Both the position numbers and the translations under genes were made by a program. The notes under the pieces were generated by a model. It had not been told where the DNA came from. It was given only the letters and a program-made list of their open reading frames with translations, and did not search any database. 64,000 nucleotides of DNA from Pseudanabaena sp. lw0831 (lineage in GTDB: Bacteria > Cyanobacteriota > Cyanobacteriia > Pseudanabaenales > Pseudanabaenaceae), in assembly GCF_016584665.1 (NCBI RefSeq), contig NZ_BBJB01000115.1:1-64000 (forward strand), written 5' to 3'. Positions 57,134-62,454 of the stretch are shown here, one piece after another; within the stretch, counting starts at the first letter, position 1; each line of letters starts with the position of its first letter.

Positions 57134-57170
57134 TAAAGAATAGGTAGCGCTTTAAGCTACCTATTCTTTA
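57134..57170. repeat. 37-bp hairpin, TAAAGAATAGGTAGC arms
   Basis: 15-bp arms around GCTTTAA. The right arm ends on the stop codon (57168-57170) of the geranylgeranyl-reductase-like gene. Confidence 0.92.
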
Positions 57171-58295
57171 TTTCATACCGATTAAACCTTTAGTGAGCCG
57201 TTTAATGGCGGCTCCAGCCACATCGCGATAACGCATCTCACCACAAAGGATTTTGCCCATGCGCTGACTTGCACTGGGTCGTTTCACTCCCATCTTGTAG
57301 CCAAAACTCGGAATACGATAGAAAATATTGGCAATTCGCTGCGCCCAAACCATATCTTCACCCCATTCTTCTTGGACTTTGAGGGTATATTGCTTGAGCG
57401 CATCAGCGTTACCACCGATCGCTTGATCGATCGCTATTCCTGCCAACATTCCCGTTAATAACGAAGGACGAATACCTTCGGCTGTGAAAGGATCGACGAT
57501 GCAAGCTGATTCGCCTGTGAGCAAAGCATTTTGAGTATGCAGTGGTTGATTGCCATCCCATAGACAAATCGGATGTCCAAATTGCTTCATGGAAGTTACA
57601 TTAATTCCAAATTCCTGAGCATATCTAGCAGCAATTTCCTTCAGATTTTGCTTCTCGCCACCGATAAATGTCCCTGCACCAATAGAATATCCATCAGCTT
57701 TAGGGAAGTTCCAAATATATCCATTTTGAACGGAGCCAAAATCAAAGTGAGCGGCACTAGTATCAGGATGTGGATGTGGCGCTTCGACTTCGAGAGCAGC
57801 TCCCATGCGACGTTTCCGTTCTTTAAATCCTAGCCATTTTGCCATGGAGCCTTTTGCCCCATCAGCAGCGATTACATATTTGGCTTCAAAGACATCATTT
57901 TCAGTTTTGACTAACCAATGATCGCTTTTCCACTCAATGCCAGTAACACCAGTATTATCACGAAGCTCGACCCCTAGTTTTTGGGCTTGTTGCACAAGGT
58001 AATGATCAAAAACATCGCGGCGTACCATCCAGACGGGTTCTTTGGTTTCTAGTTCGACTAATTCAGGATCGCCCATTTGCCATGTATAGCGAATTTGCTG
58101 AACTGTCAGTGAAACTGCTGGTGAAAAGTCAAAGTCAAACCACTCTTGTACCATTGGCGAAACGCCACCACCACAGGGTTTGTAGCGAGGTAGACTCTCT
58201 TTTTCGAGTAACAAAACTGAGCGTCCTCGTTTTGCCAAGTGATAGGATGCTGAACCACCAGATGGGCCTGATCCCACAACAATGCAGTCGTACAT
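57168..58295 (-). CDS. Geranylgeranyl reductase family FAD oxidoreductase
   Basis: 375 residues. FAD motif CIVVGSGPSGGSASYHLAKR at the N-terminus, the family P-x-Y-K-x-C-G-G motif as PRYKPCGGGVSPM and the middle DG motif VIAADGAKGS, plus the late ACIVDPFTAEGIRPSLLTG. Shorter and different from ChlP (about 405 residues), so it is likely a paralogue that reduces another isoprenoid chain. Substrate unknown. Confidence 0.88.
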   Translation of the reverse strand: MYDCIVVGSGPSGGSASYHLAKRGRSVLLLEKESLPRYKPCGGGVSPMVQEWFDFDFSPAVSLTVQQIRYTWQMGDPELVELETKEPVWMVRRDVFDHYLVQQAQKLGVELRDNTGVTGIEWKSDHWLVKTENDVFEAKYVIAADGAKGSMAKWLGFKERKRRMGAALEVEAPHPHPDTSAAHFDFGSVQNGYIWNFPKADGYSIGAGTFIGGEKQNLKEIAARYAQEFGINVTSMKQFGHPICLWDGNQPLHTQNALLTGESACIVDPFTAEGIRPSLLTGMLAGIAIDQAIGGNADALKQYTLKVQEEWGEDMVWAQRIANIFYRIPSFGYKMGVKRPSASQRMGKILCGEMRYRDVAGAAIKRLTKGLIGMK

Positions 58296-58519
58296 AGGAT
58301 AAGTATTTTGGGTGAATTAATTACAGACAAAACTTTTAAGATTCTAGCGCTTTCTTAGCTCTTTATTTCAAATTATCGTTATTTACAATATGAAATTGTG
58401 GACAAAAATTTAGGCAATCGATGACAATTTTAATCTCATTAGCCAGAAAAAAAACAAGAAAAAAAACACCTTAACCATATTAGTTTTGGTGCTTTGACAT
58501 TTATTTTTAAGGAGAAAAT

Positions 58520-58612
58520 TTAATAGCTGTAAGCGGCGTTGGTTACTACAAAGATGGTGATCGCACAACCTAAAAACTTAAAAGAAAAAATCAAGATTTG
58601 AAAAATATCCAT
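58520..58612 (-). CDS. 30-residue membrane microprotein, tandem copy 2
   Basis: MDIFQILIFSFKFLGCAITI then FVVTNAAYSY, 30 residues, TAA stop. One hydrophobic helix. It aligns without gaps to the upstream microprotein: both have 30 residues with F4, FKF at 11-13, I18, V22 and N25-A26 identical (9 of 30). It starts 18 bases after that gene stop. No clear ribosome site, so translational coupling is possible. Not recognised as any known photosystem or cytochrome subunit. Confidence 0.65.
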   Translation of the reverse strand: MDIFQILIFSFKFLGCAITIFVVTNAAYSY

Positions 58613-58630
58613 TTTCGTAGGGAAGAATAA

Positions 58631-58723
58631 TTAAAGGGTTGAGACTGCATTTGCCAAAACTAAAACGGCGATCGAACCAGCGTAGAACTTGAAGATAAAT
58701 CCGCCGAAGTGAAATACTGACAT
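58631..58723 (-). CDS. 30-residue membrane microprotein, tandem copy 1
   Basis: MSVFHFGGFIFKFYAGSIAV then LVLANAVSTL, 30 residues, stop TAA. AGGAG lies seven bases before the ATG, a strong site. Single predicted membrane span. Paralogous to the next gene downstream. Its length and layout recall small thylakoid subunits (PetN, PsbM, PsaM), but the sequence matches none that I can recall. Located between the TVP38 and geranylgeranyl-reductase-like genes on the same strand. Confidence 0.75.
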   Translation of the reverse strand: MSVFHFGGFIFKFYAGSIAVLVLANAVSTL

Positions 58724-58846
58724 TGCTCTGCTCCTTTTTTCTTTAACTCTTGATGTACTTAGTATCAAGCTTTTTTAAGAGTCAGGTGGTGATGTCAGCG
58801 TTGAGTTAGTTTGAATTTGATCACATTATTTATGTGATCGCGATCA

Positions 58847-59641
58847 CTAGCTGATTTCTGCGATCGCCTTACGCGCAATTCTGGTGACATATAGCGTTAC
58901 AGAAACTGTGGCAATAAAACCAACAATCCGAATTACCCACTGAATAGTGGAATCTGTAGGCTGATTTTCGCTGCCAATACGGGCAATATCTCCAGCCAGA
59001 GAACCGATATAGACATACATTACGGTTCCAGGGAACATGCCCACTGAGGCAAGAGCATAGTCTTTGAGAGTAACTCCCGTGACACCAAAAGCATAATTAA
59101 GCAAATTAAATGGAAATACAGGTGACAGTCGCGTTAAGAGAACGATTTTAAATCCCTCATGGGCAACGGCGCGATCGATCGCTGCAAACTTTTGGTTGCC
59201 CTCAATCTTTTTGCCAATCCAGTCACGGGCTAAATAGCGGCCAACCAGAAAAGCGGCGATCGCACCCAGAGTCGCGCCAACAAAAACATAGAGAGAGCCT
59301 AAGACAACGCCAAATAGCACGCCTGCACCTAAAGTCAAGATCGAACCTGGAATGAAGGCGACCGTGGAAACAATATAAATGAGCATAAAGACAAGCCCAC
59401 CAATATAGCCTAAGCTTTCTACCCATTTCAAGGCTGAGCGGAGTAGTTCTTGGGGATTGAAGCTTTGGCTCGCGGCCTCTTGAGCAAAGGCGGGATCAAC
59501 AATAACTACATTGATTAATAAAAATATCAATAAAAAGGCGATCGCTACAAAAAGAACGCTCGTCAAACATGAAAATATCTCGAACTCTTTTCCCCCTATC
59601 CCTCTGGGAGAGAGGATAGGGGTGAGGGTCTTCTTATTCAT
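58847..59641 (-). CDS. TVP38/TMEM64 family membrane protein (DedA-like)
   Basis: 264 residues from ATG 59641, which overlaps the arsM stop as ATGA; the ATG at 59671 was rejected. Membrane spans: an N-terminal helix (LFVAIAFLLIFLLINVVIV), then the VTT/SNARE-assoc core with VAFIPGSILTLGAGVLFG, GATLGAIAAFLVGRYLARDW and LTRLSPVFPFNLLNYAFG. Residues 4-17 (TLTPILSPRGIGGKE) come from a REP-like DNA palindrome. TVP38 genes often neighbour arsenic genes in cyanobacteria; lipid scramblase or transport roles are possible. Confidence 0.88.
   Translation of the reverse strand: MNKKTLTPILSPRGIGGKEFEIFSCLTSVLFVAIAFLLIFLLINVVIVDPAFAQEAASQSFNPQELLRSALKWVESLGYIGGLVFMLIYIVSTVAFIPGSILTLGAGVLFGVVLGSLYVFVGATLGAIAAFLVGRYLARDWIGKKIEGNQKFAAIDRAVAHEGFKIVLLTRLSPVFPFNLLNYAFGVTGVTLKDYALASVGMFPGTVMYVYIGSLAGDIARIGSENQPTDSTIQWVIRIVGFIATVSVTLYVTRIARKAIAEIS
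59593..59622. repeat. REP-like palindrome within the TVP38 coding start
   Basis: CCCCTATCC / GGATAGGGG arms (9 bp) around CTCTGGGAGAGA. It resembles the widespread bacterial sequence that gives LTPxLSPRG peptides when translated. It lies inside the frame between the start codon and the first membrane span. Confidence 0.7.
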
Positions 59642-60609
59642 TTGCAACATCCACCACCGTAATAGTGCCATGTAGAATCTGAGATCATCACCTCTTGAGG
59701 AAACTTTTCCGCAAGTTTTGAAGCAGTTTTATCGCATACAGATGTAGGATTACCACGCTGCAAAACATGCCCAGCGCGATCGTCTAAGGATGTCTCCATG
59801 CCGCTATAAACTGCGGTTTTACCTGTAAATACACAGGCTCCATCACTGGGAATAGGAACCTTGAATGATACAGAATCTAGACTCTCTAACATTAGCGGTG
59901 TATCCAAATCAAAACTATGGGTATCGAGCAAACGATAGGGACGACGGGCGCGGACTTCAATCTGTCCAAATCCTGCTTCAATCAGATAATGAATATATTC
60001 GTCATAGGTCATGGCTCCCGATAAACACATGGCTCGTAGACGTTCATCAGCTTGGAGATTGGCAGGAATCGGACGAGTAGAGATTGGGTCGCTCATAATT
60101 AATCTGCCTTTAGGTTTGAGAACTCGATAGACTTCTTTCAAAGCTCGTTGTAGGTCTTGAGGCTCGAAAATATTAAATAGACAGTTTTGGGCAACCACAT
60201 CAACCGAGGCATCGGCAACTGGTAATGCAAAAGCATCTCCTTCTAAGATATTTACAAAATCTGTATCAAACCAATCATTCTCTTGAGCCGCTAATTTTAA
60301 ATTATGACTTGCCACTTCGCGCATAGCAGCTACAGGATCGACAGCGATAACACTTCCTTTTCGGCGACAGAAATACGCAAATTGAAGAGCTTCTAAACCA
60401 CCACCAACGCCAATATACAAGACTGTTGGGTTACCGCGTAATTCTGTAGGATGGATGGTTGTACCACAGCCATAGTTCATCTGCTCAATGATTTGAGGGA
60501 TTTTGAGATTGGGAAATTGTAGTGGTGGCGTGCTGATGCAGCACAGACCAACTTGCGGAGTTTTTGCGGCTTCCGCGTAAAATTCGGCGGTGGTTTCGAG
60601 ATAGCTCAT
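59638..60609 (-). CDS. arsM: Arsenite methyltransferase ArsM, arsenosugar-biosynthesis type
   Basis: 323 residues. Cysteines in GLCCISTPP, MNYGCGTT and AQNCLFNIFEP and the end YYGGGCCK match the arsenosugar-pathway ArsM. SAM site is VLYIGVGGGLEALQFAYFC. It adds methyl groups to As(III) using SAM; dimethylated product is the start of arsenosugars. The radical-SAM partner ArsS is not in the window. The TVP38 gene follows by an ATGA overlap. Confidence 0.93.
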   Translation of the reverse strand: MSYLETTAEFYAEAAKTPQVGLCCISTPPLQFPNLKIPQIIEQMNYGCGTTIHPTELRGNPTVLYIGVGGGLEALQFAYFCRRKGSVIAVDPVAAMREVASHNLKLAAQENDWFDTDFVNILEGDAFALPVADASVDVVAQNCLFNIFEPQDLQRALKEVYRVLKPKGRLIMSDPISTRPIPANLQADERLRAMCLSGAMTYDEYIHYLIEAGFGQIEVRARRPYRLLDTHSFDLDTPLMLESLDSVSFKVPIPSDGACVFTGKTAVYSGMETSLDDRAGHVLQRGNPTSVCDKTASKLAEKFPQEVMISDSTWHYYGGGCCK

Positions 60610-60816: not shown

Positions 60817-62454
60817 CTAAAACAAGGTCGAAATACCATTTGGGCGCAGATCTTTGTAATCTAGAATCTTGCGAACTACATCGAAGGTAGACTGCGAATC
60901 TGTAATAGGAATTACAGAAGCTAGCTGCCCTGGTAGAACCTGCATTACAGGAGGCATGTCCTGTGTGAATACATTAATCGTGCGATTAATCAGTGAATAA
61001 TTGCCTTTGGAAAAAGCGTTGGTATAGGTGAATTGATTGGTTGCTTGAGGTAGTCCTGCAACATTAAACAAACCAAGTGGAATACTTTGAGATGTTGTCA
61101 AAAAGCTTGCAACTGTTTGAGTTAGAACGGTTGTCGTCTGGATTTGAGTGAAATAGTCATAGACTCTGACATTACGATCAATTTTACCAATGCGCTGAGA
61201 GTCGATACCACAGACAGTGCGAATAGTGCCATATGCTGATGGATCGCTGGGTAAAATCAGGCTAATGGTTGAGAAGTTTTTAAGCAGTTGCACTTCGCTA
61301 TATCCTAGAGGACGATTATTCAAGTCGAATAAACGGACAACTAGGCGATCGCCTGGATTCAGCCCACGGATAAAGGTAGCACGCTGATTAACGTTAAAAC
61401 GATAATCACCAACAAAGCGCTCTTTGAGAAATCCATTAGAACGCTTCGATTTGATCGAAAGACGTGCAATTACCTGAGACAAGCGCGGCTGATTTTGCAA
61501 AACTGCAAAGCTAAAATGTCCACGATGAGGATTCTTTTTAGATAGCTCAACGCCATCACGCTCCTTGCGCTCTTTGCGATCGGTTCGGCGATCGTCATCA
61601 TAGTCATCATCTTCATCGTCGTCATCATATTTTTTGGAGACAACGATGGGCTTCATTGGTTTAACAGAACTACCTGTCTGGACATTTGTGTTTTCAATGA
61701 CCACCGTTTGAGTAGACTGCGTAGTCGTTGATTGAGAACCAGTTGTAATTCCCAAATCGCGATCGGAAATTACTGAATTGTTGGAGGAGTTATTTGATGA
61801 ATTGTTGGAGGAGTTATTTGATGAATTGTTGGAGGAGTTGTTGGATGAATTGTTGGAAGTACTAGTGTACACAGAAGAAATGCGTCCAGCTTTTACCTCA
61901 GTTGCACTAGCTGTGACAATTGAAGTAAAGGATTTGACTTCTTCGATCTCAAATCTCGCATCTTTGACACCATTGGGCAAGTCATAGCGAATGCTAGTAA
62001 TCGCCTTGAGATCGCCATTGTAAATATCATCAAGAGAGATTTTTTCGCTCAGGGAACTTAGGGAAATCACTTCTACTGCTGTAAACTGTCGCCCTGCATT
62101 TTTGGAGAGCAGTCTTGCGCCTGAATTGGTATAAACTTCGCGCCATTCCCCAGCACGTTTTACATAAAGCTGATACACCGCGTTTGCGTAGGTAGTCGAA
62201 GGCTTATTGGCAACATCTAGTAAAATGCCAATGCTTGAAAGGTTGCCAGAGTTGTCTAGCAAACGCAATAGCTGTACGCCTGTTTGCCAGTCCTGTGGAA
62301 CTTGAGCAACTATTTGGGGAACAGATGGAGCTGCGATCGCTTCTATAGTATTCAGAAAAGATGCTGTAGTAAGAGTTGCTGCGAGAAGACATAGAGATGT
62401 CTTCTGAAATCTGTTGCCTATTTGGCTACGAAAATTTTTACTGACAATATTCAT
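60817..62454 (-). CDS. Large exported hypothetical protein with Asn/Ser repeat linker
   Basis: 545 residues. Signal peptide CLLAATLTTASFLNTIEAIAA, cleavage after AIA-A. Residues about 50-190 form a globular domain (GVQLLRLLDNSGNLSSIGIL and WREVYTNSGARLLSKNAGRQ). A (SSNN)-rich linker of about 30 residues (about 195-230), an acidic DDDDEDDDYDDD stretch, and a C-terminal beta-rich part with NQRATFIRGLNPGDRLVVRL follow. Likely periplasmic or outer-membrane associated. No family recognised. Confidence 0.82.
   Translation of the reverse strand: MNIVSKNFRSQIGNRFQKTSLCLLAATLTTASFLNTIEAIAAPSVPQIVAQVPQDWQTGVQLLRLLDNSGNLSSIGILLDVANKPSTTYANAVYQLYVKRAGEWREVYTNSGARLLSKNAGRQFTAVEVISLSSLSEKISLDDIYNGDLKAITSIRYDLPNGVKDARFEIEEVKSFTSIVTASATEVKAGRISSVYTSTSNNSSNNSSNNSSNNSSNNSSNNSSNNSVISDRDLGITTGSQSTTTQSTQTVVIENTNVQTGSSVKPMKPIVVSKKYDDDDEDDDYDDDRRTDRKERKERDGVELSKKNPHRGHFSFAVLQNQPRLSQVIARLSIKSKRSNGFLKERFVGDYRFNVNQRATFIRGLNPGDRLVVRLFDLNNRPLGYSEVQLLKNFSTISLILPSDPSAYGTIRTVCGIDSQRIGKIDRNVRVYDYFTQIQTTTVLTQTVASFLTTSQSIPLGLFNVAGLPQATNQFTYTNAFSKGNYSLINRTINVFTQDMPPVMQVLPGQLASVIPITDSQSTFDVVRKILDYKDLRPNGISTLF
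61775..61858. repeat. 24-bp tandem repeat coding for the Asn/Ser linker
   Basis: Unit TTGGAGGAGTTATTTGATGA then ATTG, starting at 61781, 61805 and 61829 with slight change in the last. It encodes SSNN repeats on the minus strand. Prone to copy-number change. Confidence 0.9.

Follow-up and report, generated by a model that had tools for sequence, protein, structure and literature searches.

Two adjacent open reading frames of 30 codons each lie on the minus strand of a 64,000-nt stretch of DNA from Pseudanabaena sp. lw0831 (below, the window), and they raise the question whether frames this short are genes at all and, if so, what their products might do. A first-pass annotation had reported them as a tandem pair of translated, paralogous membrane microproteins resembling, in size, small subunits of thylakoid complexes. 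Both frames are present (genes A and B, Table 1), and both are real protein-coding genes, easily overlooked.

The flanking DNA has features of its own. A VTT-domain membrane protein is encoded beside ArsM of the arsenosugar-biosynthesis type (NF038099, 568 bits) at 58847–60609, probably forming an arsenic-metabolism unit; a geranylgeranyl-reductase superfamily protein (TIGR02032), scoring under the BchP and ChlP cut-offs, is encoded at 57168–58295; and a large secreted-looking ORF at 60817–62454, with an (NNSS)n repeat encoded near 61780–61990, has no Pfam match.

Table 1. Features of the A/B locus, in coordinates of the window
Feature	Position	Strand	Remarks
Microprotein gene A	58631..58723	−	30 aa, product MSVFHFGGFIFKFYAGSIAVLVLANAVSTL
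Microprotein gene B	58520..58612	−	30 aa, product MDIFQILIFSFKFLGCAITIFVVTNAAYSY; without a Shine-Dalgarno sequence
Shine-Dalgarno AGGAG of A	58731..58735	−	Read in the sequence; common to A and C members
−10-like element GATACT	58761..58766	−	In GATACTAAGTACA; conserved 35–52 nt before ATG in most A and some C genes
ATCACnnC half-site-like motif	58786..58793	−	Conserved in the alignment; centre at about −41.5 if GATACT is the −10 element
Second, degenerate CRP-like site	58810..58825	−	TGTGATCAAATTCAAA; 51 nt from GATACTA; 11/14 consensus positions
Near-perfect CRP-type palindrome	58833..58848	−	AGTGATCGCGATCACA; 74 nt from GATACTA
Putative Rho-independent terminator	58459..58495	−	AAAGCACC...GGTGTTTTTTTT; hairpin and T-run just 3' of B

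Paralogy, selection and predicted fold of A and B

Aligned without gaps, A and B have ten of 30 residues in common, Met1 included (M1, F4, F9, F11, K12, F13, I18, V22, N25, A26); the first-pass annotation had counted nine, overlooking F9, and on paralogy itself it was right. Random shuffling of B reaches the ungapped BLOSUM62 score with p = 5e-6 and the level of identity with p = 5e-4, and no other pair among the window's 24 ATG ORFs with exactly 30 residues is so alike. Moreover, the profiles of the A and B ortholog sets align over columns 1–29 with E 1e-9 (hhalign). Given the shuffle statistics and this whole-length profile match, the paralogy is real.

A strong Shine-Dalgarno sequence precedes A only; the AGGAG that had been noted there is present and conserved. 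In the window 18 nt separate the A stop from the B start. A longer form of A, of 45 residues and starting at a TTG, was ruled out because this codon precedes the −10 element and the added residues lack conservation.

Selection was estimated from Nei-Gojobori counts along a minimum spanning tree, with tree edges treated as independent, so that the p-values are approximate. For A, 22 distinct sequences yield pN/pS of 0.22, with 108.5 synonymous differences against 67.5 amino-acid differences (p 5e-23 for the synonymous excess); for B, 15 sequences yield 0.35 (p 5e-11), the constraint being weaker than on A. These ratios clearly point to purifying selection on both genes and, together with the conservation of the frames, bear out the proposal that both are translated. 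An alignment of 14 sequences, with another genus represented, shows no change at Lys12, Tyr14 or Leu21 of A. Codons 19–22 of A (58658–58669) stand apart: 0.04–0.16 of same-residue pairs differ synonymously there, against 0.5–0.7 at many other codons, and GCnGTTTTAGTT is retained at this place in nearly all A genes. Such low synonymous variation suggests that a DNA or RNA signal may overlap the coding sequence.

AlphaFold2 models A as one helix spanning residues 4–29 (mean pLDDT 93), and the best 19-residue stretch has mean hydropathy of 1.8–2.5 in all members tested (A, B, C and a pair from another genus, genome G029). A single hydrophobic helix is predicted for A and B alike, as in the earlier proposal of one membrane span each, and each protein would insert in a membrane in this form. 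By the positive-inside rule, positive residues favour the cytoplasmic side; the conserved lysine, being nearer the N-terminal end, suggests that the N-terminus of A is cytoplasmic.

Searches of the family members against Pfam, NCBIfam, PHROGs and PADLOC yielded isolated chance-level matches only, and comparison with PDB chains gave no sensible match. PetN of the same genome (29 residues), used as a positive control, was readily found, with 1e-16 in Pfam and 4e-9 in the PDB, so that any close relationship to a small subunit of known structure would have been noticed. The hint of a thylakoid-complex subunit in the first-pass annotation, a likeness in size, is thus not supported, as no Pfam, NCBIfam or PDB relative appeared.

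Distribution and turnover of the family

A was sought in 58 genomes of rising distance, and profiles were run on sets of 291, 26, 388 and 38 genomes. Considering convincing members only, A is present in 19 of the 26 Pseudanabaena genomes. In a twentieth genome the same promoter precedes a divergent member of 24 residues that starts with TTG, and six genomes, two of them incomplete, have no family member. About 27 A, 16 B and 9 C genes were counted, C being a third subfamily of 27–30 residues (MTEINIGGFIFQSYATAIAFLILIVIL and similar), and the number of genes per genome ranges from one to five.

The tandem arrangement, whose conservation in cyanobacteria had been put forward as a check on the pair, is retained: B follows A at 16 Pseudanabaena loci, with a spacer of 12–14 or 18–19 nt, and has only ever been seen just downstream of an A. 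The window's own genome has a second A/B pair (contig C105, 41228–41424), and the cultured Pseudanabaena PCC 7429 carries an A gene. G029, from another genus of the same family, carries two family genes in tandem, both encoding exactly 30 residues (MSIYKIANFIFKLYGVSLFALLATSALTAR and MSIYKSFLFTVEYCLISTAALLIISTVVPS), with 61 nt between them. Beyond Pseudanabaena and this genome no further members were found in 388 class-wide genomes, nor in the other families of cyanobacteria searched. Titles of matching public contigs refer mostly to Pseudanabaena strains, plus one Phormidium tenue record, one uncultured cyanobacterial MAG and one Lokiarchaeota MAG; the last, a match to the A-gene DNA pattern, was taken as chance or contamination. 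Weak matches outside the genus and in genomes G001 and G003 (E above 0.005) were rejected as relics, since they lie in or across other frames or contain stops, and lack the promoter. The A-gene DNA pattern has no match in viral contigs, plasmids gave no tblastn match, and phages gave one chance match only (E 3). We conclude from these searches that A and B belong to an unnamed microprotein family almost confined to Pseudanabaena.

Absence from sister genomes, or broken frames in them, had been named in the first-pass annotation as arguments against the pair. Conservation proved to be widespread and, at the same time, incomplete: besides the six of 26 genomes without a member, B has a frameshift in one MAG (G009) and is cut short at one of the loci of G008, and one G010 promoter precedes a broken gene whose coding sequence is lost. 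The decayed copies of B and of the G010 gene mean that the family gains and loses copies, and, taken with the six genomes, they indicate that its function is dispensable. A G010 locus (L091, G010:C33:60200-70700) shows local expansion, with three members in about 500 bp, namely A, B and a second A with its own promoter.

Promoter architecture and the candidate regulator

In the alignment of upstream regions the conserved blocks are a palindrome near TGTGATCnnGATCACA, the motif ATCACnnC, GATACTAAnTACA and AGGAG, while the surrounding DNA aligns poorly. Among the family promoters the palindrome occurs at one of two fixed distances from GATACTA, 51/52 or 74/75 nt. If GATACT is the −10 element, and the transcription start is assumed accordingly, the palindrome centre falls at about −63.5 or −86.5 and that of the half-site at about −41.5; on the same assumed start, the three CRP-like positions are 22–23 bp apart, that is, two helix turns. 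The degenerate site of the window shares its phase with the full site of other members.

The pattern ATCACnnC-N17-23-GATACTAAnTACA has 13 matches in 25 genomes, all of them before a family member (A or C), and none in reversed controls; a looser promoter pattern ending in GGAG has 22 matches, five of them unrelated and one at a broken copy. Even subfamilies A and C have this promoter in common. Across the 306 kb of context DNA, 33 palindromes match at least 12 of 14 positions, and 27 of them lie no more than 200 bp upstream of a family gene, against 0.14 expected (an approximately 200-fold enrichment). Palindromes of this quality occur in 26 of 34 family promoters, and in the other eight a good one is absent. 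At most one mismatch to TGTGATCnnGATCACA is found at two places in the whole 5.26-Mb genome, the A promoter and C65:54572 (L133). The latter is upstream of an uncharacterised 73-residue ORF (MSATTKCLFPKSRYYG...), and the gene further on is one that we take to encode argininosuccinate synthase.

Most loci have, past their last gene, a terminator hairpin with a T-run; a stricter terminator scan did not call the one 3' of B in the window. Comparison of the family loci between genomes revealed no consistently conserved neighbour gene. The commonest neighbour, a molybdopterin oxidoreductase (Oxidored_molyb), lies before A at 12 of the compared loci and does not occur in the window. As the neighbours vary between genomes, the unit is autonomous, moved or copied with its promoter and terminator; judging by this comparison, A and B form a compact cassette with putative control elements of its own. 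Still, GATC-rich (HIP1-like) words abound in cyanobacterial genomes and the promoters have a common origin, so that a function of the palindrome as a CRP site is something we infer.

The cyanobacterial CRP consensus is TGTGAN6TCACA, and at known targets the −10 box is about 22 bp downstream of the site (PMC2633013). The A promoter has a TGTGAN6TCACA-like palindrome at fixed spacing, and its proximal half-site ends 21 bp before GATACT. It thus resembles the SyCRP1 regulon of Synechocystis both in the palindrome and in the −10 box about 21–22 bp past the proximal half-site, but differs in that the full palindrome is at one of two more distant, phased positions and that the genes constitute a new family.

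Six Crp-family proteins are clear in the genome. One of them, encoded at C114:4057-4746, has the cyclic-nucleotide cassette FGEM..PRST and the recognition helix RETVTR, whereas NtcA of the same genome has a different helix, STRVTVTR. This protein scores better on the CRP model than on that of NtcA, in both cases under the curated cut-off, and it is found with 90–100% identity in 24 of 25 genomes, including all 22 good ones. From its motifs we read it as the probable SyCRP1 ortholog. This SyCRP1-like putative cAMP receptor is most likely the factor that would act on the A/B promoter, presumably as an activator rather than a repressor.

Possible roles of the pair

The explanation we prefer, if tentatively and with slightly less than even confidence, is that A and B are a CRP-controlled, non-essential accessory pair of membrane microproteins, probably modulating a larger membrane complex. 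Both would be translated from one short two-gene mRNA of about 290 nt with its own promoter and terminator, transcription of which would be raised when a CRP-family factor binds the palindrome. The strong ribosome-binding site would drive translation of A, and B would probably be translated by coupling or re-initiation 12–19 nt past the A stop. Together, or A alone, they would serve as a small accessory partner altering the activity, stability or assembly of the larger complex when the CRP factor signals the relevant condition. A dispensable function may, of course, be something other than modulating a complex.

A more specific form of this proposal, which we consider unlikely though worth stating, is that the cassette, relocating and present in several copies, uses a cAMP-CRP promoter to make a matched single-helix pair. 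The two proteins would act together as a hetero-oligomer and so pass cAMP signals in Pseudanabaena to a respiratory or photosynthetic membrane complex or to the membrane as such. If true, the cassette would be a new kind of cyanobacterial membrane control device.

The best analogy for the function would be SliP4 (HliR1), a protein of 37 residues from Synechocystis 6803, which supports the association of NDH1 with photosystems (PMC12850537). It is likewise a genus-restricted single-helix cyanobacterial microprotein with its own regulation, initially unannotated (PMC5126843, PMC12850537). It differs in being controlled by RpaB and high light, and the available text of the same papers describes no tandem partner. 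The first residues of SliP4, deduced from a primer, are unlike A or B, a comparison covering these residues only, and we treat it as an analogue rather than a demonstrated relative. Norf4 of Synechocystis 6803 (31 residues) also matches A and B in having about 30 residues and one membrane span, but it is extremely conserved in 51 cyanobacterial genomes (PMC5126843), whereas the A/B family occurs in one genus and one relative, is multi-copy and paired.

Several other readings were weighed. Rather unlikely, in our opinion, is that A and B are membrane-active peptides in the style of type I toxins (ZorO, Ldr, Ibs, TisB, Fst), strong expression of which would depolarise the membrane and slow growth, restrained by antisense RNA or by the CRP-type promoter. 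The resemblance to ZorO, Ldr and Ibs is considerable (about 30 residues, hydrophobicity, tandem multi-copy organization, narrow range; PMC8309996): at 30 residues, with their hydropathy and one helix, A and B are small hydrophobic peptides, usually under 60 aa in such toxins, and the tandem duplication, one to five genes per genome, narrow patchy range and copy decay all fit. ZorO itself was found through a search for tandemly duplicated small hydrophobic proteins (PMC8309996), and the suppressed synonymous variation at A codons 19–22 would agree with a nucleotide signal overlapping the gene. However, the structured leader of these toxins has no counterpart, as the leader is only about 30 nt long with the Shine-Dalgarno sequence unpaired in the centroid fold; the whole A/B mRNA is no more structured than shuffles (z 0.14); a sequence scan detected antisense sigma-70-like promoters over the genes at no more than chance frequency; and no toxin family in Pfam, NCBIfam or PADLOC is matched. 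The same suppressed codons, along with the short independent transcript with a promoter and terminator, could be cited for a transcript acting chiefly as a regulatory RNA or leader with incidental ORFs. We hold this to be very improbable, since both ORFs show a strong synonymous excess, the start, stop, length and Shine-Dalgarno sequence are conserved, the fold is not unusual and the window has no Rfam match; the terminator and the varying downstream genes speak against a leader in particular.

PetN, PetL, PsbT and PsaM are single-helix proteins of about 29–35 residues and fixed parts of their complexes. In size and helix number A and B are like them, and the host is a cyanobacterium; both points would suit permanent structural components of one of the known thylakoid complexes (photosystem I or II, cytochrome b6f, NDH-1) whose sequences have become unrecognizable through divergence. 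We nevertheless regard this as improbable. Unlike those proteins, the family is patchy, multi-copy and without a sequence match in Pfam or among all PDB chains, cyanobacterial complexes included, where PetN was found at once. A thylakoid subunit is expected lineage-wide and normally in one copy, and this family is missing in six of the 26 Pseudanabaena genomes and in almost all the other cyanobacteria covered by the searches, has up to five genes elsewhere, and appears to be under CRP-type control. Such a patchy, multi-copy, genus-level spread speaks against a core role in a photosystem or b6f, whereas an accessory subunit would be compatible with it, and membership of A and B in a photosystem or b6f appears unsupported by these comparisons. 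About as improbable is an action on the cell surface or beyond it, in the manner of a signal, a bacteriocin or a factor related to pili. The CRP-type promoter and the multi-copy family are compatible with it, and in Synechocystis SyCRP1 controls type IV pilus and motility genes, the formation of pili and motility both requiring it (PMC2633013); on the other hand, there is no double-glycine leader and no conserved exporter among the adjoining genes, and one helix takes up the entire protein.

Whatever the exact role of the accessory pair that we favour, a conserved microprotein family, unmatched in the family libraries searched, is added to the small membrane proteins of cyanobacteria. The candidate CRP (cAMP) site makes the timing of A/B production directly testable, a matter usually open for such genes. 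As so good a palindrome is found at only two places, A and B would, if the CRP link is right, be among the most clearly marked CRP targets of the genome.
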